Origin: a virus
Length of the DNA: 48,837 nucleotides
IMG/VR virus record: IMGVR_UViG_3300050821_009530
Location: 1-48,837 of that record
Reading direction: 5' to 3' (one strand)
The notes below the pieces were generated by a model. It had not been told where the DNA came from, did not search any database, and saw only the letters and a list, made by a program, of their open reading frames with translations. Positions 5,281 through 35,335 of this stretch are shown piece after piece (within the stretch, counting starts at the first letter, position 1; each line of letters starts with the position of its first letter). The translations under genes and the position numbers were made by a program.

Positions 5281-6255
5281 ATGATCAGTGGATTTGACGT
5301 AAAAGATCAGGCACTTGGAACCGGCGACACGCTGGCTTACACCTTTGATTTTAAAATCTATGATCCTACGGATTTGCTGATTTGGGTTCAAGATGGCAGC
5401 GGCAATGTTGTCGAGCAAGTGCGCGGCGACGATACGACTTATTTGGCCGGCCTTGCTTTCGATTCTCTTAACGGCGGTGGAACGGTCACACTCGCTGCAT
5501 TTTTACCGGACACCTACGTCATCACTTTTATGCTCGCTCCGGACGCTCCCGATCAGCCGAGCGATTTTCCCGACAAGGGATCTTTCTCGCTAAGCGCATT
5601 GGAAGGCGCTTTGGATTTTCTAGCGAGCTGCATTCAGCGCGTTTCGTGGCTGGCCACGCGCGCGGCCGTAATGCACGACCTCGACGACTTATCATCCTTT
5701 GATCCGACCCTTCCGCTTGGCATTGGGAACAATCCGGGGGGAGTTGTCTCAGTGAAGGCGGACGGGTCGGGATTTGAAATTATCATAACCACCGCAACGA
5801 TTGCTGCGGCTCAAGGTTACGCATCAACCGCTCAAGCGGCTCAAAATGCCGCGGCTTCTAGCGCTACGGCGGCGGCGGCAAGTGCGACTGCAGCGGCGGC
5901 GTCGGCCGCGGCTTCACAGTCTGGAGTCACCCCCTTTGGTACGCCCGCGGCTCCTGAGAATGTTTTAGCAGCCAATGGCGTCACTTTTACGCCCGCCAAT
6001 CAAGAGGAAGTGCATTGGATCCAAGGTAATGCCGGTAATGTGGTGGTGACCGCCAATCCTCAAATTAACACCGCTGGCGTGGCCAAGGGTCAACGCATTT
6101 ATCTCTACGGAGCCAATGACGCTCAGACGGTGAAATTTACCAATGGTAACGGCTTGTCGCTCAACGGCGATTGCATCCTTGGTCAAGAGGACTGCTTAGG
6201 TTTATTGTTTAACGGGACGCAGTGGAGTGAATTGTTCAGGAGGTCTGCAACATGA
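5281..6255 (+). CDS. T7-type tail fibre adaptor protein, copy 1
   Basis: This 324-residue protein has an N-terminal domain of about 150 residues like that of T7 gp17 (Phage_T7_tail family), which anchors fibres to the tail: DTLAYTFDFKIYDPTDL near residue 20, later FPDKGSFSL and RAAVMHDLDDL. An alanine-rich coiled-coil-like linker (residues about 175-210) leads to a beta-rich C-terminal domain. It is paralogous to the protein at 7619-8674. The start has a GAGGA ribosome site. The gene overlaps the next fibre gene by ATGA, suggesting an adaptor and fibre made together. Anchoring to the tail is inferred from the family. Confidence 0.88.
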   Translation: MISGFDVKDQALGTGDTLAYTFDFKIYDPTDLLIWVQDGSGNVVEQVRGDDTTYLAGLAFDSLNGGGTVTLAAFLPDTYVITFMLAPDAPDQPSDFPDKGSFSLSALEGALDFLASCIQRVSWLATRAAVMHDLDDLSSFDPTLPLGIGNNPGGVVSVKADGSGFEIIITTATIAAAQGYASTAQAAQNAAASSATAAAASATAAAASAAASQSGVTPFGTPAAPENVLAANGVTFTPANQEEVHWIQGNAGNVVVTANPQINTAGVAKGQRIYLYGANDAQTVKFTNGNGLSLNGDCILGQEDCLGLLFNGTQWSELFRRSAT

Positions 6256-7622
6256 GTAAATTTATTTTAGCGATGTTAATTGGAGCAGTTGCGTGGGCAG
6301 GACCGTCGAGCAATCGCTATGTGACTGGTCAGTTCATTAAGAACGGATCCGGAATTTTTGCAATTCCTTCGGTCTCGACGAATGACCAATTGGTCGGCCG
6401 CGCGACAACGGACACACTGACAAATAAGACGATCGATACGGGATCCAACACGATCACCAACTTGGGATCCGCAAACCTTGGCGGGACTCTCTCAAGTGGA
6501 AATATCATCGTTGGTAACGGCTCAAACCAATCGGCCGCGGTGGCCGTCACTGGTGACGTGCTGCTGAGCAATGCGGGCGTGACGAGTTATAATAACGTGG
6601 TTCCTATCGCTAAGGGCGGCACGAACAATGGATCTCTTGCTGTCACCAATGGCGGCGTGGCCGTCACCGACGGATCCAAAGTCATAAATTCCGGTGCCGG
6701 AACGACTGGACAGGTTCTATTGGCCGGCACTCCCGCGGCGTTCGGATCTTTGACAGGACCGAGTGCAACATATCTCACATCGACAAGCACCACTGCCGGT
6801 TATTGGTTTGCGATCAGCTCAGGCAATGCGACAGTCGGCGCGACTTACACAAACAATTCAAATACCTACATTGTAATTTCAACTGTCTCGAGCGCCACCA
6901 CGGTTTTGATGTCCGGCACAGGAGCTCCCTTATCTAGTGGTACATTGACCAAATCCGGCGGCACTGGTGACGCAACGCTCACCTTCTCGGCCGCGACGGC
7001 GATGGCTGGATATACGCCTCCGACGGGAACCAAAACTCTTGACGTGATTGCGGTCGGCGGCGGCGGTGGAGGAGCTGGGACTGACTCTGTGGCATCGTCC
7101 ACAGGCACAGGAGTGGGAGGTCAGGGCGGCTCTACAGTTCTTAAGACAATTACCTCGCCCGACGCCATCTATTATTATGCAATTGGTGCCGGCGGCGCTG
7201 GAGGCGTATCGGGAAATAACTCCGGATCCGACGGCGCGCAGACGGTCTTTGGTTCAGCAAATTTAACACTTCTCGCAACTGGCGGATATCACGGAATTGC
7301 TTTTGGTTCGCAAACTTCTTTTCCGGCCTGCCAATCGGCGACGTCTTCCGCGGTGGCTCCTACTGGTGGAGACTTGAATTTCCAAGGGACCGTAGGCGGT
7401 CAGGCGTGCGTGTTTTCTTCCACCATTGTTCCTCTCCGCGGGACTGGCGGCAGTTCAATGCTCGGCGGCGGTGGATCCAACTGCGGAGGAAACCATACCG
7501 GTTGTTCTGGGTTAAATTATGGCGGCGGCGGGTCTGCTGGCATTGAAGTAAATAATAGCGGAGCTGTCGCCGGCGGCCCTGGTGCTGGCGGCGTCATTAT
7601 TATAAAGGCTTATATTCAATGA
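6252..7622 (+). CDS. Signal-peptide-bearing fibre protein with glycine-rich tip
   Basis: The 456-residue product starts with a Sec-type signal peptide (MSKFILAMLIGAVAWA, cleavage likely before GPSS). A fibre-stalk region follows with repeats such as TDTLTNKTIDTGSNTITNL and GGTNNGSLAVTNGGV. After a small insertion domain (about residues 195-250) the C-terminal third is glycine-rich (VGGGGGGAG, YYYAIGAGGAGG), like glycine-rich fibre tips in other phages. The start has a perfect AGGAGG site and overlaps the upstream stop (ATGA). The stalk repeat is shared with the fibre at 8634-10232. A signal peptide on a virion fibre is unexpected; the protein may instead be displayed by the infected host. The fibre call is firm, its location is not. 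Confidence 0.8.
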   Translation: MSKFILAMLIGAVAWAGPSSNRYVTGQFIKNGSGIFAIPSVSTNDQLVGRATTDTLTNKTIDTGSNTITNLGSANLGGTLSSGNIIVGNGSNQSAAVAVTGDVLLSNAGVTSYNNVVPIAKGGTNNGSLAVTNGGVAVTDGSKVINSGAGTTGQVLLAGTPAAFGSLTGPSATYLTSTSTTAGYWFAISSGNATVGATYTNNSNTYIVISTVSSATTVLMSGTGAPLSSGTLTKSGGTGDATLTFSAATAMAGYTPPTGTKTLDVIAVGGGGGGAGTDSVASSTGTGVGGQGGSTVLKTITSPDAIYYYAIGAGGAGGVSGNNSGSDGAQTVFGSANLTLLATGGYHGIAFGSQTSFPACQSATSSAVAPTGGDLNFQGTVGGQACVFSSTIVPLRGTGGSSMLGGGGSNCGGNHTGCSGLNYGGGGSAGIEVNNSGAVAGGPGAGGVIIIKAYIQ

Positions 7623-8674
7623 GCATTCAGGGCTTTGATTACAAAGATCAATTCCTCGGCACCGGCGACACCAGTGTCTATACGTTTGATTTTAAAATCT
7701 ACGATCCGTCACATTTGCACATTTATGTTCAAGACTCTCTTGGGAATATTATTAACGACACCGACGGCAACGATCCGACTTTAATCGCCGGCGTGACTTT
7801 CGATTCGATCAACGGCGGTGGAACAATCACACTCGCCAATAATTTGGGTAATCAATTCACGATGACCATTTTACTGGCCAACGATTATCCTGATCAGCCT
7901 ACGGATTTTCCGGATAAAAATTCATTCACATTGGATGTGATCGACGGCGCTCTTGATTTCATCACCTCTTGGGGGCAGCGCGCGGCCTATCTTGCTCAAC
8001 GCGCCTTAAGACTTCACGATCTCGATGACGTCGATGGCTTTGACATGCGGCTGCCTTTTAACGCCGCGGCCAACGCCGACTGTTTTTTACAAATCAACGA
8101 TGCGGGCAATGGGTTCGCTTTTGGACCGACGTCCGCAAGCCTGCTCAATTCCGTAAACGCAGCAGCATCCGCGGCCGCAGCTAGTGAAGCGACTGCAGCC
8201 GCCGCCGCTGCCGACGCTTTAGCTCAAGACGCTTCTGCCACGGCGTCCGCAAGTGCCGCAGCAGGATCCGCGGTCAGTGCAAGTGCAAACGCCGCAGCCG
8301 CAGCCGCCAGCGCAGCTCTAGCCGCCACCTTTGCGAGCGGCATTGTCCACACAGGACCTTTCGCAGCCATTGCTCCAAATACCAACGCCAACTTGGCCGG
8401 CGAGACGATTGATCACACGAAATTTACAATGATCGAATACACCGCTCGGATTCAGCGCGGGACCACGGTTTACGCAAAACAGCAGTTCACTCTTTTTTAC
8501 CGCAATAGCGCATGGGAGTTGGCTTTAGGTTTGGATCTATTCGCAGACGCCGGAAGCGATCATGGCGTGACATTTACGGCTGATTCGGTGACGGCTCAAA
8601 TAAATGTGGCCGTGGCCAATGATGGGGGAAGCAATGCGATCATCGACCTTGATAAAATTCAGTGGCCTGCTTAG
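7619..8674 (+). CDS. T7-type tail fibre adaptor protein, copy 2
   Basis: The 351-residue protein repeats the plan of the protein at 5281: DTSVYTFDFKIYDPSHL near residue 20, FDSINGGGTITL, DFPDKNSFTL and LRLHDLDDVDGFD in the same order. A long alanine/serine-rich heptad-like linker (about residues 175-240) follows, then a C-terminal domain of about 110 residues unrelated in look to copy 1. It starts in an ATGA overlap with the previous fibre gene. Copies 1 and 2 show that a two-gene cassette (adaptor + fibre) was duplicated in tandem and that the distal parts then diverged or were exchanged. Confidence 0.88.
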   Translation: MSIQGFDYKDQFLGTGDTSVYTFDFKIYDPSHLHIYVQDSLGNIINDTDGNDPTLIAGVTFDSINGGGTITLANNLGNQFTMTILLANDYPDQPTDFPDKNSFTLDVIDGALDFITSWGQRAAYLAQRALRLHDLDDVDGFDMRLPFNAAANADCFLQINDAGNGFAFGPTSASLLNSVNAAASAAAASEATAAAAAADALAQDASATASASAAAGSAVSASANAAAAAASAALAATFASGIVHTGPFAAIAPNTNANLAGETIDHTKFTMIEYTARIQRGTTVYAKQQFTLFYRNSAWELALGLDLFADAGSDHGVTFTADSVTAQINVAVANDGGSNAIIDLDKIQWPA

Positions 8675-26971: not shown

Positions 26972-27198
26972 GACTTCTCCCATTTAGTTCTGGCCTCGTC
27001 GAGCATTTTGCAAGCCTCCTCGACCCCGTACATCACGGCAAAGGCGTCGAAATAGACATGTTGCGCCGAGGGCTTGCGCTTCCCGTGGTGGAAGTCGGTC
27101 TTTTCGTGAGTTAAAATGTGATCACAGATCGAGTCGACGTGGTGTCTATTCTTCGGTTTGTGGATCGTCGTGTGTTTTCTTCCCAGCGGGTCCGCCAT
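26968..27198 (-). CDS. Small histidine-rich protein, unknown function
   Basis: The 76-residue product has an AAGGAG ribosome site, yet overlaps the upstream gene by 53 nt. It has many histidines in the N-terminal half (THEKTDFHHGKRK) and a helical C-terminus. A metal or nucleic-acid role is possible but not shown. Confidence 0.6.
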   Translation of the reverse strand: MADPLGRKHTTIHKPKNRHHVDSICDHILTHEKTDFHHGKRKPSAQHVYFDAFAVMYGVEEACKMLDEARTKWEKS

Positions 27199-27850
27199 AC
27201 TTGCTCCTTATTTCTTGTTTATCTCTTTCCAATTTTTCATTAATTCTCTGTCTCACGTCATCGGGGACTTTTTCACGATAAGCCAAAAATTCTTCAACCG
27301 ACAATTTTTCTTCAGCCATTTTGATCTTATTTTTTTGCTGTTCTAACTTCTTTCGCTTTCTATCGATGACGTCCGTGTTCCTGGTTTTAACTCTAATCCA
27401 TTTATGGTCGGGACCAAATTCAAAGACCTGCCCTGGCGGCTTAACGGCCGTCTCGAAAACCAATTTCATTTCCAGTAATTCACGTAAAGCCAATAGCACC
27501 ACTGATTTATTGGGCACGCCAAATTGCCTTCGAAAAATCAGCAAATTGTCCCGGCTGATACCTGACGGAAAACGCTGAATGAAAGCGAAAATATTTTGCG
27601 CCTCGTCGGTATAGGCGTGCGGCACATAGATAGTTTGTGGCTCAGCGGCCGGATAATAAAACGGTGTCCGCGAATCGCGCTCGTTGTCGACGGCGTAGCT
27701 AATCAATCTCGAAAGAGGCAGCATGGTCGATTCCGACAATTTGCATAAAAATTTATATTGTTCATTGGGAATACTGATTTTAACGCCCACAAAATCCTTC
27801 GCGGCTTCAACTGAACTTTTCTTTTTGAACCACGGCGGCCGGCGTCTCAT
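27146..27850 (-). CDS. Probable DNA-binding protein, unknown function
   Basis: The 234-residue protein opens with a basic segment, then a ribbon-helix-helix-like stretch (VGVKISIPNEQYKFLCKLS), a winged-helix-like middle (SRDNLLIFRRQFGVPNKSVVLLALRE) and a long charged coiled coil (RKRKKLEQQKNKIKMAEEK). It may regulate transcription or initiate replication at the nearby repeat region. The start overlaps the previous stop by ATGA. No exact family recognised. Confidence 0.6.
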   Translation of the reverse strand: MRRRPPWFKKKSSVEAAKDFVGVKISIPNEQYKFLCKLSESTMLPLSRLISYAVDNERDSRTPFYYPAAEPQTIYVPHAYTDEAQNIFAFIQRFPSGISRDNLLIFRRQFGVPNKSVVLLALRELLEMKLVFETAVKPPGQVFEFGPDHKWIRVKTRNTDVIDRKRKKLEQQKNKIKMAEEKLSVEEFLAYREKVPDDVRQRINEKLERDKQEIRSKYGGPAGKKTHDDPQTEE

Positions 27851-30148: not shown

Positions 30149-30717
30149 ACCACGCTCGCTTCACTATAAACAATGTATTGCGTTTCTTCCATTGTGACTG
30201 AGTAATACAATGTAGATTGGGCTGTCAAGTGGTGTTACATTGTATTTTTATTGTTTGACGCGCTGCCTAACTAGTGGGTGCCCGTATCTACAGCACAGAG
30301 GGCGGACGAAGCTTGCTGAAGGCTGCGCTCGCCTCCTGCGGTGGAGATAACTCCCACATGTTAACATTTGGTGAGAAAGATTGTCAATAGCATAACGCGG
30401 CGCTCATTTGATTTGGCAAAATAATTTGTTAGGTAAAAAATTTTCCACCAACATAAAATTGTAGATAATTTCTCAAATTGGTAGCAAATTCTCTAAAATC
30501 ATACAATGTATTTCAATTTTAAAATCATCATTTGGCAATTTATACAATGTATAATCATAAATAAGCCTCGCGGATTATAATTAACGTCTACAATGTATAA
30601 AAGTTCTACAATGTATAAGGTTTTAAAACAATGTATATTGATTTTAACGCGGCACGATATTAGCATGCTCAACTGTACCGACTCTAGGAATTCTCCTAAG
30701 TCAACAAAGGATGCACT
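30149..30717. promoter_or_regulatory. AT-rich intergenic control region with eight TACAATGTA sites
   Basis: No gene is seen in these 569 bases. Sites TACAATGTA occur at 30206, 30502, 30543, 30589 and 30607, the reverse form at 30236, and one-mismatch AACAATGTA at 30169 and 30627. The site at 30541-30553 is a perfect hyphenated palindrome, TATACA-A-TGTATA. The middle (30270-30360) is more GC-rich with a small imperfect hairpin near GGAGATAACTCC. The region separates divergent operons and is the best candidate for the main control region, a replication origin, or the physical genome end. Confidence 0.8.
30200..30228 (-). promoter_or_regulatory. Leftward promoter with internal operator
   Basis: On the leftward strand TTGACA (30223-30228) is followed 15-17 nt later by TATTACTC (about 30200-30207) as -10. 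The site TACAATGTA at 30206-30214 fills the spacer, so a protein bound there would block the promoter. It would drive the small-gene block from 30148 down. Confidence 0.6.
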
Positions 30718-31409: not shown

Positions 31410-31419
31410 ACGTCCGCAA

Positions 31420-31640
31420 TACAATGTAGAAAATGAGAAACCGAAAACAAAACGGCCACCCCCTGGAGCAAAAAACGCGATCCGGAAAATCTTTATAAGG
31501 TCCATCCCCACACCTAGGCAAATTTTGATAAACATTTTCAACTATATACAATGTATAAAATTATGGGAAAATTTTGATAAATATTTTCAACTATATACAA
31601 TGTATAAAATTTTATAATTTTTTACCAGATATACAATGTA
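31420..31640. repeat. Second TACAATGTA cluster with a 49-bp tandem direct repeat
   Basis: Sites lie at 31420, 31547, 31596 and 31632. The two central ones are inside near-identical units (about 31520-31563 and 31569-31612) that repeat ATTTTGATAAA-C/T-ATTTTCAAC and TATATACAATGTATAAAAT with 49-bp spacing. Each unit also reads TTGATA-N16-TACAAT, a plausible rightward promoter. The last site overlaps the 3' end of the desaturase gene. The stretch 31352-31611 has no gene. Confidence 0.8.
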
Positions 31641-32148
31641 GAAGTCTCTCAAGTTTTCCCCAAAAATCTACAGCATCTAACCACGGATTCAGCCAATTCG
31701 ACATAACGCAAAATCTATAACGGCTCTCCTCGCGCTTAACCAAATGAACACCTTCGAAGTGATGACCGGCGTGATGATTCTCTGAGATCAGTAGGCCAAT
31801 GGCTTGTAGCACTCGCACTATATAAGGGCGGCGCGATTTAGAATCATGAGCCCAGCGGTGGACGAGATTTCCAAAGCCTAGGAAAAAGAGGACGAGCCAC
31901 ATGAGGTCAGGCGCGCCGAGGAAAAAAGAAATGACTGCGGCGGTCCATGCGAAGGGCGCTGTGGTGTTGATATTGGACCACCACGAGTAGCGCGTCAGAT
32001 AGCCCGGCATTTTGTGATGGCGTTCATTGTCGAGGCGGACTTGATTGAGAAAAGCGATACTGGAATTGGTGGTGGAGGATCTGTCTTCCCACCAGTGCAC
32101 CACTCCAGAGATAAAATCAGCAATGAGCCAAGCAAATAGGTATGTCAT
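31612..32148 (-). CDS. Plasmanylethanolamine desaturase family (TMEM189/PEDS1/CarF)
   Basis: The 178-residue membrane protein matches the lipid desaturase family that forms the vinyl-ether bond of plasmalogens (PEDS1 in animals, CarF in Myxococcus). All histidine motifs are present in order: ADFISGVVHWWED (H18), ERHHKMPGY (H44, H45), NLVHRWAHDS (H97, H101), ENHHAGHHFEGVH (H125, H126, H129, H130, H135). The end FCVMSNWLNPWLDAVDFWGKLE also fits. Membrane segments lie at about 66-92. It is shorter than cellular members, starting directly at the ADF motif, so leading helices are missing; an in-frame stop upstream excludes an earlier start. No clear ribosome site. It is the only metabolic-type gene in the control region. 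Confidence 0.85.
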   Translation of the reverse strand: MTYLFAWLIADFISGVVHWWEDRSSTTNSSIAFLNQVRLDNERHHKMPGYLTRYSWWSNINTTAPFAWTAAVISFFLGAPDLMWLVLFFLGFGNLVHRWAHDSKSRRPYIVRVLQAIGLLISENHHAGHHFEGVHLVKREESRYRFCVMSNWLNPWLDAVDFWGKLERLLHCISGKKL

Positions 32149-32159
32149 TGTAACAGATT

Positions 32160-32226
32160 AACATTGTAGCGGCGATTGAGGAGTCCAGACTTGACACGGA
32201 TTTTAGTTAGGTCACTCTATATATAT
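32160..32226 (+). promoter_or_regulatory. Operator variant and likely promoter of the late block
   Basis: AACATTGTA (32160-32168), a one-mismatch reverse copy of the operator, is followed by TTGACA (32191-32196) and TCTATATATAT (32216-32226) as -10, with a spacing of 19-21 nt, longer than ideal. It would start rightward transcription of the terminase genes close to their ATG. The same operator lies just upstream of the divergent desaturase gene. Confidence 0.5.
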
Positions 32227-33042
32227 ATGTCGGAGAGTAAACCTTTTCCAAAACCGCCGTTTCAGAACAATAGGGAGATGCCATTTGGCAATCCAGACCC
32301 GGTGATGGTTGAGGAGGATCCTAGGCTTAAAGACGATGACGTGAGGCTCATCTTTAAGACTTATTTAATTCCTGAGCACTTTAAGAGTGAGAAGATTCTG
32401 CGGTTCATATTGGCATATTGCACTTGTCGGAATGCGTCCCAGGCGCAGAGAGAGTCGGGGCTTAGCGGGTCGGGGGCTTACTGGAGGTCGCGGCCGGACA
32501 TACACTCCTGCATTGAGGCCATCACGCAACGTGCGATAATAAAGTACGGCTATGACTCACACGACGTGGTCGAGAGAGTCAAAGAGATCGCTGACGTCGA
32601 CCCGGTGGAGTTTCAAAATCCAGACGGCTCGTGGAAGACACATTTGCGCGAGATCAGACCGGAAGTTCGGCGCGCGATAAAAAAAATGAAGGTAAAGAAT
32701 ATTTATGGAGAAGACGCCAACGGGATGAGAATTGTCACCGGTCAAATTATTGACTTTGAATTATGGGACAAGATGAAAGCCAATGAGATGCTGGGGCCGG
32801 AGAAGAATGTATTTAAAAAGACTACGGTTGTGACGCATGACGTGACTGAGAATATGAAAGAGGTTTTACTTGAATCTAATAATAGAGCCGAGGAACGATT
32901 GAAACTAATGGCTTCAAGGGAGGTAGTTGAGCATGGCGAAGGCGAAACCGGTAGTAGTGGTGAAGGATGGGATCGAGACGGAATATCCGTCGGGGAATCG
33001 AGCGGCCAAGGAATTGGGGATGGACCAATCGGTGATGAGTAA
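32227..33042 (+). CDS. Terminase small subunit
   Basis: The 271-residue protein from ATG 32227 has the core of small terminases: helical N-terminal domain (TCRNASQAQRESGLSGSGAYW) and the typical segment HDVVERVKEIADVDPVEF, REIRPEVRRAIKKMKVKN, DFELWDKMKANEMLG. It would recognise phage DNA and present it to the large subunit. No ribosome site precedes the ATG, so translation may be leaderless; an in-frame TTG at 32176 is less likely. The C-terminal tail overlaps the next gene by 110 nt. Confidence 0.85.
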   Translation: MSESKPFPKPPFQNNREMPFGNPDPVMVEEDPRLKDDDVRLIFKTYLIPEHFKSEKILRFILAYCTCRNASQAQRESGLSGSGAYWRSRPDIHSCIEAITQRAIIKYGYDSHDVVERVKEIADVDPVEFQNPDGSWKTHLREIRPEVRRAIKKMKVKNIYGEDANGMRIVTGQIIDFELWDKMKANEMLGPEKNVFKKTTVVTHDVTENMKEVLLESNNRAEERLKLMASREVVEHGEGETGSSGEGWDRDGISVGESSGQGIGDGPIGDE

Positions 33043-33121
33043 ATTGGTCAGGGGAGAGAAGACCGACATCAAGGGGATTACGGCCAGGTTTAAAGACTGC
33101 AAAGACGTGGCGGATAAGTGA
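32933..33121 (+). CDS. Small NUMOD1-like DNA-binding protein
   Basis: The 62-residue protein (ATG 32933 with a GGGAGGT site) has a helix-turn-helix of NUMOD1 type: YPSGNRAAKELGMDQSVMSKLVRG. Such modules occur in homing endonucleases and phage DNA-binding proteins. It overlaps the small terminase gene by 110 nt in another frame, which is long but supported by the strong ribosome site. Target unknown. Confidence 0.62.
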   Translation: MAKAKPVVVVKDGIETEYPSGNRAAKELGMDQSVMSKLVRGEKTDIKGITARFKDCKDVADK

Positions 33122-33555
33122 TCATTTCCGAGCACTATAAAGTGTGGGGAGGGCCTCGGCCGGCAAATTTGGCCGACCTTAGGGCTGAGGGGATCAAGCG
33201 GATTATTTCTCTTGAGGCTGGAGTCTATCAGGCTCTAAAAGTTTACGAGAATGAGCGCGACAGCGTCATGTTCCAGTTCCCCTGTGAGTTTGGAATGGCA
33301 GAGTACAATATGCCGATGTCGGCGATCCAAGCTCCGGACAAAGACTACGTCGATAAAATTTTAAAATTAGTGGCCGATGGAATGCCTACATTTATTCACT
33401 GTGAGCATGGTCAAGATCGCACCGGTTTTGTGGGCGCGGTCATCAAAATGCGCTATGAGGGCTGGACGTATAAACAAGCGCTTGAGTGGTGGTCCGCATT
33501 CCGCCATTGGCAATATTTCGTGTGGGACAAAGAGCTTGAGAAGTGGGGAGTATGA
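33118..33555 (+). CDS. Tyrosine/dual-specificity phosphatase
   Basis: The 145-residue protein has the cysteine phosphatase loop HCEHGQDRTG (C95, R101) and the upstream pattern GPRPANLADLRAEGIKRIISLEAG typical of compact dual-specificity phosphatases. It starts at a GTG overlapping the previous stop. It could remove phosphate from protein, nucleotides or lipids; substrate unknown. Location between the terminase subunit genes is unusual. Confidence 0.85.
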   Translation: MIISEHYKVWGGPRPANLADLRAEGIKRIISLEAGVYQALKVYENERDSVMFQFPCEFGMAEYNMPMSAIQAPDKDYVDKILKLVADGMPTFIHCEHGQDRTGFVGAVIKMRYEGWTYKQALEWWSAFRHWQYFVWDKELEKWGV

Positions 33556-33731
33556 GCGACTTAGCGGACGACAAGACCGTCACTCTCACCTTGGTTTTGC
33601 TCGAGGGCCGGGAGTTTGACTTTTGGACAAATCGTATGTTTATCGAGACGCTTAGGGATCTGGCGGACCTACTTGAAAGTGAATGCGAGAAAAAGGACTT
33701 GGACGAAACCCTTAAAACCGTGGACCATTGA
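33552..33731 (+). CDS. Small protein, unknown function
   Basis: The 59-residue protein starts at ATG 33552 (GGGGAG site, ATGA overlap). It has a beta-rich N-terminus (KTVTLTLVLLEGREFDFW) and an acidic helix. It ends in an overlap with the terminase start. Confidence 0.6.
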   Translation: MSDLADDKTVTLTLVLLEGREFDFWTNRMFIETLRDLADLLESECEKKDLDETLKTVDH

Positions 33732-35335
33732 TGGCGCAAATTAATCCAGATGACTTGGCGGCGTTCAAAGCCGGACTAAATAAAAATCGCTATGACTTTT
33801 GCCGCTTGGTTTACCATATCTTTCCGTTCGGACAAAAGGGGCACGAGCTCGAGGCCATGGCCCCCTACGACTGGCAAATGGAGGAGTGGGAGAAGCTCTC
33901 TAAACACTTGACCAATCCTGAAACGCGTTATGAACTTTACCGGCTGATCATCTCGTCAGGCAACGGGGCCGCAAAGACGGCCTTTGGCGCGATGACAATT
34001 TTAATGCTCATGTACACGCAGCAGCTCAGGGCCAGGATCACAGCCAACACTGACCCTCAAATGAAGGCGACCGTGTGGCCTGAGTACGACATTTGGTTTA
34101 GAAACGCTCGGTATTCGGAGGTGTTTTTTGAGAAGTTTGGGACGTCTATTAAAGCGCGCAATCCAAAGTTTGCGTCCACATGGCGGACGGACACCTTCAC
34201 TTGGTCCGAGGAAGCCCCCGCAGCTATTTCTGGGCTTCACAACAAAGGGCGAGCTGTATCTTATGTGTTTGAGGAAGCGCCAGGCATTCCGGCTAAAATA
34301 TTCGAATACGCAAATGGAGCCTTCGGAGACACGCTTACCATCAAAATTTGGATGGCGTTTGGCAACTCCGACGACCCTACCTCTAAATTCGAGCAGCTCA
34401 TGTCATCACCTTTGTGGCATTCCAAGCGAATCGATACCCGTACCTTGGGCCACATGGATAAAAGCTGGATTGATGATTTGCTCCGTGAATGTAACGGTAA
34501 CGAAGACCATGATGATTTTAGAGTGCGCGTGCGAGGACTGCCGAGAAAAACAGCGAAAGACTCCATCATTTCAACCGAAAATGTCTCGGCTGCTATTGAG
34601 CGAGGAAAACATTTTGACGCCGGAACAGTGGCAAGCCTTCCTTGTCTCTTGACCTGCGACCCGGCTTGGCAGGGCGGCGACGAGACGGTAATTGCCATGC
34701 GGCAGGGGCACCATCTTTGCGTGCTCGAGAAATATAAACTCGATCGGTCGCAAAAAGAAAATCACACGCTCACTTTTCAAAAGCTTTGTCACTATGAGAA
34801 GGACATTGGGGCCGACGCTGTTTTTATCGATCAAGGAGAGGGAACTGGAATTTATTCGATGGCGCAAAACGCCGGGAAGACAAGTTGGTTTTTAATTTCG
34901 TTCGCCAACAAACCGACCGACACGCCGGAGTCGAAGGATTCTGAGTACGCAAATATCCGCGCGCAGATGTACCACGAGCTCAATAAATTGCTCATAGAAG
35001 GCGGCGTGCTGACGACTAGGGATCCGGATGATTTGGAGATCACAGCGAAGCAGCTCACTTGGGCTAGAGGATCCAGACATAAGGTGACGATGAAAAAAAC
35101 CGTCGAACCTAAGGTGGACATCAAGGACCGAGTTGGTCAGTCACCAGACATCGCCGACGCTCTCGTGCTAACGTGCGCCATGCAGGTGACCGACAGGCTT
35201 CCGGAGAACGCGGTTGTGACCGATGCTGACGGCAATCACTTGCTCACGGGGCAGTCGGCGTACAAGATGCCGGAGCACGACGTGACCGATCTTTATGATA
35301 TCGACGACGTCACCTACTCTAATTTGTACGACTAA
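33731..35335 (+). CDS. Terminase large subunit
   Basis: The 534-residue packaging motor has a variant Walker A (SGNGAAKT, 76-83), Walker B (YVFEEA, 178-183), and nuclease acids in LTCDPAWQGGDETV (D310), AVFIDQGEG (D367) and SPDIADALVL (D473/D476). It pumps DNA into the head and cuts it. The ATG overlaps the previous TGA. The GxGAAKT loop differs from the usual GxGKS/T spacing but retains Lys-Thr. Confidence 0.93.
   Translation: MAQINPDDLAAFKAGLNKNRYDFCRLVYHIFPFGQKGHELEAMAPYDWQMEEWEKLSKHLTNPETRYELYRLIISSGNGAAKTAFGAMTILMLMYTQQLRARITANTDPQMKATVWPEYDIWFRNARYSEVFFEKFGTSIKARNPKFASTWRTDTFTWSEEAPAAISGLHNKGRAVSYVFEEAPGIPAKIFEYANGAFGDTLTIKIWMAFGNSDDPTSKFEQLMSSPLWHSKRIDTRTLGHMDKSWIDDLLRECNGNEDHDDFRVRVRGLPRKTAKDSIISTENVSAAIERGKHFDAGTVASLPCLLTCDPAWQGGDETVIAMRQGHHLCVLEKYKLDRSQKENHTLTFQKLCHYEKDIGADAVFIDQGEGTGIYSMAQNAGKTSWFLISFANKPTDTPESKDSEYANIRAQMYHELNKLLIEGGVLTTRDPDDLEITAKQLTWARGSRHKVTMKKTVEPKVDIKDRVGQSPDIADALVLTCAMQVTDRLPENAVVTDADGNHLLTGQSAYKMPEHDVTDLYDIDDVTYSNLYD

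Follow-up and report, generated by a model that had tools for sequence, protein, structure and literature searches.

Proteins of the lipid desaturase family PF10520 are named in the literature from plants, algae or Myxococcus, and the two characterised branches are both desaturases (PMC8960569). Each introduces a double bond near the glycerol end of a phospholipid chain, PEDS1 (TMEM189) at Delta1' of an ether chain and FAD4 at Delta3 of an acyl chain. Mouse PEDS1 requires histidines 96, 121, 122, 187, 191, 215, 218 and 219 together with D100, and its F118A and H131A mutants keep 6% and 7% activity, respectively (PMC8960569). Histidine 131 (H113 in CarF) occurs specifically in PEDS1/CarF, whose normal activity depends on it (PMC9131029, PMC8960569). 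This histidine is found in metazoan, myxobacterial and Leptospira enzymes and is absent from plant and alphaproteobacterial homologues; one tested alphaproteobacterial homologue and three plant ones failed to replace CarF in Myxococcus (PMC9131029). Searching titles and abstracts of the open-access literature, we found no description of a phage PF10520 protein, and an earlier description elsewhere is possible.

The stretch of DNA analysed here, which we call the window, is an IMG/VR virus record of 48,837 bases in which a profile scan identified terminase, portal, DNA polymerase and helicase genes. It is the genome of a podovirus-like phage. Its terminase, portal and capsid proteins are 28-38% identical to those of epsilon15-like and cyanobacterial podophages, a level that names no host, and we therefore rejected host naming from these likenesses; no tRNA genes were found in the window. 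On its minus strand the phage encodes a lipid desaturase family protein of 178 amino acids (31612-32148, with the ATG at 32148 and the stop ending at 31612), belonging to a short PF10520 subfamily in which, to our knowledge, no member has a demonstrated activity.

The protein matches Pfam PF10520 (Lipid_desat) far above chance (E 1.8e-29, 103.4 bits, cut-off 26.4), with residues 7-176 aligned to profile positions 1-170 of 175. Eight superfamily histidines are kept (H18, H44, H45, H97, H101, H126, H129 and H130), as is the essential aspartate, with D22 corresponding to mouse D100. The profile match and the intact metal-ligand residues establish a phage-encoded member of the TMEM189/CarF/FAD4 superfamily, as a sequence-only reading of this DNA had proposed, and the C-terminal family signature that it pointed out, WLNPWLDAVDFW, is present. 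That reading also credited the protein with the full set of histidine motifs; eight of nine are there, but Tyr54 stands in place of mouse H131, the histidine diagnostic of PEDS1/CarF. The eight are invariant in an alignment of 37 sequences (the window protein and 36 relatives) and kept in 102 of 102 compared homologues. Neither the window protein nor the 36 relatives aligned with it matched a PHROG.

The gene is apparently intact. Only three codons (SVT) separate its ATG from an upstream in-frame stop, which shows that the short N-terminus is genuine. On this ground, and because cellular relatives are similarly short, we rejected an N-terminal truncation and a missed start. The Pfam score, the invariant histidines and dN/dS in relatives likewise led us to reject a chance ORF or decaying cargo.

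The AlphaFold model of the protein has a pLDDT of 89.4 and a pTM of 0.83. Sequence matching gave no useful solved structure, and the best structural match to a solved protein was the di-metal hydroxylase Scs7p (TM 0.40-0.46, with a non-significant E of about 1), on which Werner et al. partly modelled PEDS1, leaving out the first helix. A closer fold is itself encoded by a virus: the Harvfovirus Lipid_desat protein A0A3G5A308 (Foldseek E 6.3e-6, TM 0.70), which differs in coming from a giant virus, not a phage, and in being longer (220 amino acids). Membrane desaturases and hydroxylases have this kind of histidine site in common and the top PDB match is a hydroxylase, both of which would suit a lipid hydroxylase, or another oxygenase using the same metal site, in place of a desaturase. 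We give this little credence, as the Scs7p match is weak (E 1.0) and PEDS1 and FAD4, the characterised PF10520 branches, are both desaturases (PMC8960569).

The sequence-only reading went further and identified the protein as a plasmalogen desaturase of the PEDS1/CarF type. Alignment places Tyr54 at the H131 position and Asn41 at the F118 position; misalignment of H131 was considered and rejected, since this position lies at exactly the same distance from the HH pair and is a histidine in all CarF-type proteins. Only 17 residues precede H18, where most CarF-type proteins have about 57-80, and the first of the four transmembrane helices of PEDS1/CarF is absent. The earlier statement that the first helices are lacking thus holds for one helix, but for one only, and cellular short-type relatives are without it too. 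Against the CarF equivalog model NF045946 the protein scores 45.5 bits, where the cut-off is 500, a strict one considering that the best score among 237 genomes was 345.

Phylogeny points the same way. In a maximum-likelihood tree of 102 proteins from viruses, phages and bacterial genomes, a branch supported at 100/98 separates a CarF-type side (28 proteins) from a short side (74). The former consists of 26 proteins labelled beforehand by origin and score, plus the cellular protein L138 and the huge-phage protein L038; the latter holds the window protein, 46 viral proteins and 27 cellular or prophage ones. F118 and H131 both occur in 26/26 labelled CarF-type proteins, and neither occurs in any of the 74 short-type proteins.

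A true plasmanylethanolamine desaturase, forming the vinyl-ether bond in a host with alkyl-ether phospholipids, would nonetheless agree with the shared superfamily, the eight of nine histidines with D100, the weak CarF-model match and the residual activity of murine H131A, which indicates that H131 is not absolutely required there (PMC8960569). Set against this are the lost H131, F118 and helix 1, the unreached NF045946 cut-off, the position outside the CarF clade and the failure of the tested alphaproteobacterial homologue to complement carF (PMC9131029). In addition, no true CarF-type protein was found in the IMG/VR scan, in which none of 36 pattern matches was a relative. We consider such an activity improbable, and on these sequence comparisons the window protein is probably not of the plasmalogen-making type. 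Because these tests and the complementation result are negative, the proposed effects on plasmalogens, singlet-oxygen signalling and fusion find no specific support. Among viral proteins, the strongest candidate for a CarF-like activity is L038 (LR756511.1, positions 5980-6438), a 152-residue homologue from a 595 kb uncultured phage, which has Phe at the F118 position and a His aligned at H131 and joins the CarF-type side on a long branch.

In summary of the likeness to PEDS1/TMEM189 and CarF, the window protein shares the Pfam family, the essential histidines and D100, and the short and CarF-type profiles are homologous over their length (profile comparison: probability 100, E 2.2e-51), whereas it is shorter (178 residues versus about 240-270) and falls in a separate clade. 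Short-type proteins have a single helix ahead of the first histidine box, and the missing helix is therefore a trait of the subfamily and not a phage truncation. The window protein also resembles short PF10520 proteins of Alphaproteobacteria and Bacteroidota, which have the same short form, fall in the same clade and also carry neither F118 nor H131 (27 cellular short-type proteins compared, prophage copies L116 and L117 among them). The window protein differs from them by a low-confidence insertion around residues 131-138, shared only loosely with the viral protein L040. L040 is its sister in the tree (100/99); the terminal branches of the two are long, which makes any finer placement uncertain.

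PF10520 scored above cut-off in 4/289 genomes from the class to which the sphingomonad locus L116 belongs, in 2/247 from the phylum that includes the Spirosomataceae locus L120 and in 30/101 from the family that includes the Hyphomonas locus L121. Genomes of the Hyphomonas family (G003, G006, G008 and others) carry short PF10520 genes, several of them in two or three copies. Among the nine bacterial loci of a first genome scan, L116 lies inside a P2-like prophage, L117 adjoins Mu gp27 and a Mu portal gene, and L122 adjoins a NikA-like mobilisation gene; no matches came from searching plasmids with one of the cellular homologues. Another cellular short-type gene, L118, lies directly 3' of a PF01553 acyltransferase gene, a weak pointer that may indicate glycerophospholipids.

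Phosphatidylglycerol is a common bacterial lipid, and an acyl-chain desaturase acting on it in the manner of FAD4 is a further candidate. Plant FAD4 shares with the window protein the Pfam family, the eight histidines and the lack of H131, which is usually Arg in plants (PMC9131029, PMC8960569). The window protein, however, has Tyr and not Arg at that position, and the F118 that is conserved in FAD4 is Asn here. We regard this activity as unlikely. The same substitution counts against the desaturase explanation as a whole, since F118 is a conserved residue of PEDS1 as well as of FAD4 and matters for the function of PEDS1.

Within the window, the gene sits between an operator-like repeat array and the terminase genes, and the earlier placement in a phage control region thus agrees with what we found. 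It points away from its divergent neighbour, the terminase small subunit gene (32218-33042, plus strand; phrog_51, E 1.5e-07; the start is the one used in the scan and is provisional), beyond which lies the terminase large subunit gene (33728-35335, plus strand; phrog_2, E 8.5e-21). The array consists of operator-like TACAATGTA direct repeats (31418-31640) that overlap the desaturase 3' end. Such sites number 17 in the window, versus 0.3 expected by chance, and cluster there and at 30167-30617. A scan for promoter-like sequences placed two copies within near-identical promoter-like units directed rightward, towards the terminase and antisense to the desaturase. A ribbon-helix-helix protein encoded at 27146-27850 (PF12651, E 1.4e-4) is a candidate regulator that might act at these sites. 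No Shine-Dalgarno sequence is evident before the desaturase ATG (32149-32176), unlike in many other genes of the phage, and a TACAATGT motif about 20 bases upstream of the start also sets it apart from many of them.

Related phages were found through the terminase large subunit, yielding 27 other contigs, 12 of which include at least about 1 kb of the sequence that precedes the terminase small subunit gene. These relatives were rejected as desaturase carriers, as none has the gene, which is therefore an accessory gene of the lineage. Given a bona fide phage genome and a gene that is not core to its group, the desaturase is a phage accessory (auxiliary metabolic) gene. Between the two terminase genes the window also encodes a dual-specificity-type phosphatase (33118-33555, plus strand; PF22785, E 2.6e-8), which had no match in the 27 contigs.

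Beyond this lineage, genes of the short form recur among phages. A degenerate-pattern scan found a short-type relative in about 107 IMG/VR contigs, a number that includes one contig from the window's own phage; the CarF-type scan used different degenerate patterns, so the contrast between the two counts is qualitative. Carriers include unrelated podo-, sipho-, Mu-like and P2-like phages, and dN/dS between pairs of phage homologues ranges from 0.06 to 0.37, so that the short-type phage genes are under purifying selection. One homologue belongs to an isolated phage, Erythrobacter phage vB_EliS-L02 (UIS25202.1, 35.5% identity over 94%), and its gene adjoins the portal gene, near PhoH; it is annotated only as hypothetical, and the paper on that phage makes no mention of a desaturase.

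The immediate neighbours of viral homologues, based on gene calls by codon-usage selection and not by a standard gene finder, include genes for terminase small and large subunits, portal, tail sheath and tail completion proteins, holin, lysozyme and amidase. In P2-like members the desaturase occupies the lysis slot, between tail gene X and gpR in prophage L116 and between lysozyme and tail gene S in L060, and in L095 it overlaps the end of an amidase gene. These positions, with holin PHROGs among the neighbours, would suit a late-acting membrane protein tied to lysis, whose lipid change might time or ease holin or spanin action. This reading concerns role and is compatible with the desaturase explanation. 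We nevertheless think it rather doubtful, as the gene lies by the terminase or portal in the window, L040 (near the terminase, as in the window), L064, L068, L037 and L071, the window desaturase and the late genes are on opposite strands, and the neighbours rest on codon-usage selection. A general lysis-cassette location was accordingly rejected, holding for some phages only.

Directly upstream of the desaturase in L047, L048, L058, L063, L067 and L069 is a conserved, secreted-looking protease-like gene, the L058 copy of which matches Trypsin_2 (E 6.6e-9). Two genes upstream of the desaturase in L070, a gene at 7009-7767 (plus strand) reads like a phospholipase-D-type protein.

Our preferred reading, to which we assign a probability of roughly 0.6, is that the window protein is an O2-dependent di-iron integral membrane desaturase that acts on a host glycerophospholipid, encoded by an accessory gene that adjusts the host membrane. 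The eight histidines and Asp22 would hold two irons at the cytoplasmic face. Host carriers of the ferredoxin or cytochrome type would supply the electrons, which we propose because no dedicated redox partner was noticed in the window. The enzyme would then desaturate a fatty chain of the lipid near its glycerol end; we infer this class of chemistry because both characterised PF10520 branches desaturate a phospholipid chain there. By these steps the phage would adjust the host membrane during infection, presumably to its own benefit. A bolder proposal, which we hold tentatively and at somewhat less than even odds, is that podo-, sipho-, Mu-like and P2-like phages share an as yet uncatalogued family of di-iron lipid desaturases that alters host phospholipids during infection with a regiochemistry unlike that of PEDS1 and FAD4, producing a lipid foreign to the uninfected host.

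Little attention has gone to the remodelling of host phospholipids by phage genes. What makes this family matter is its repeated occurrence in unrelated phages under purifying selection, the lack of any PHROG for it and its place outside the CarF/PEDS1 branch of the superfamily. An isolated carrier, vB_EliS-L02 on Erythrobacter litoralis DSM 8509, opens the role of the family to direct testing, and the answer would give the short PF10520 proteins of Alphaproteobacteria their first function.
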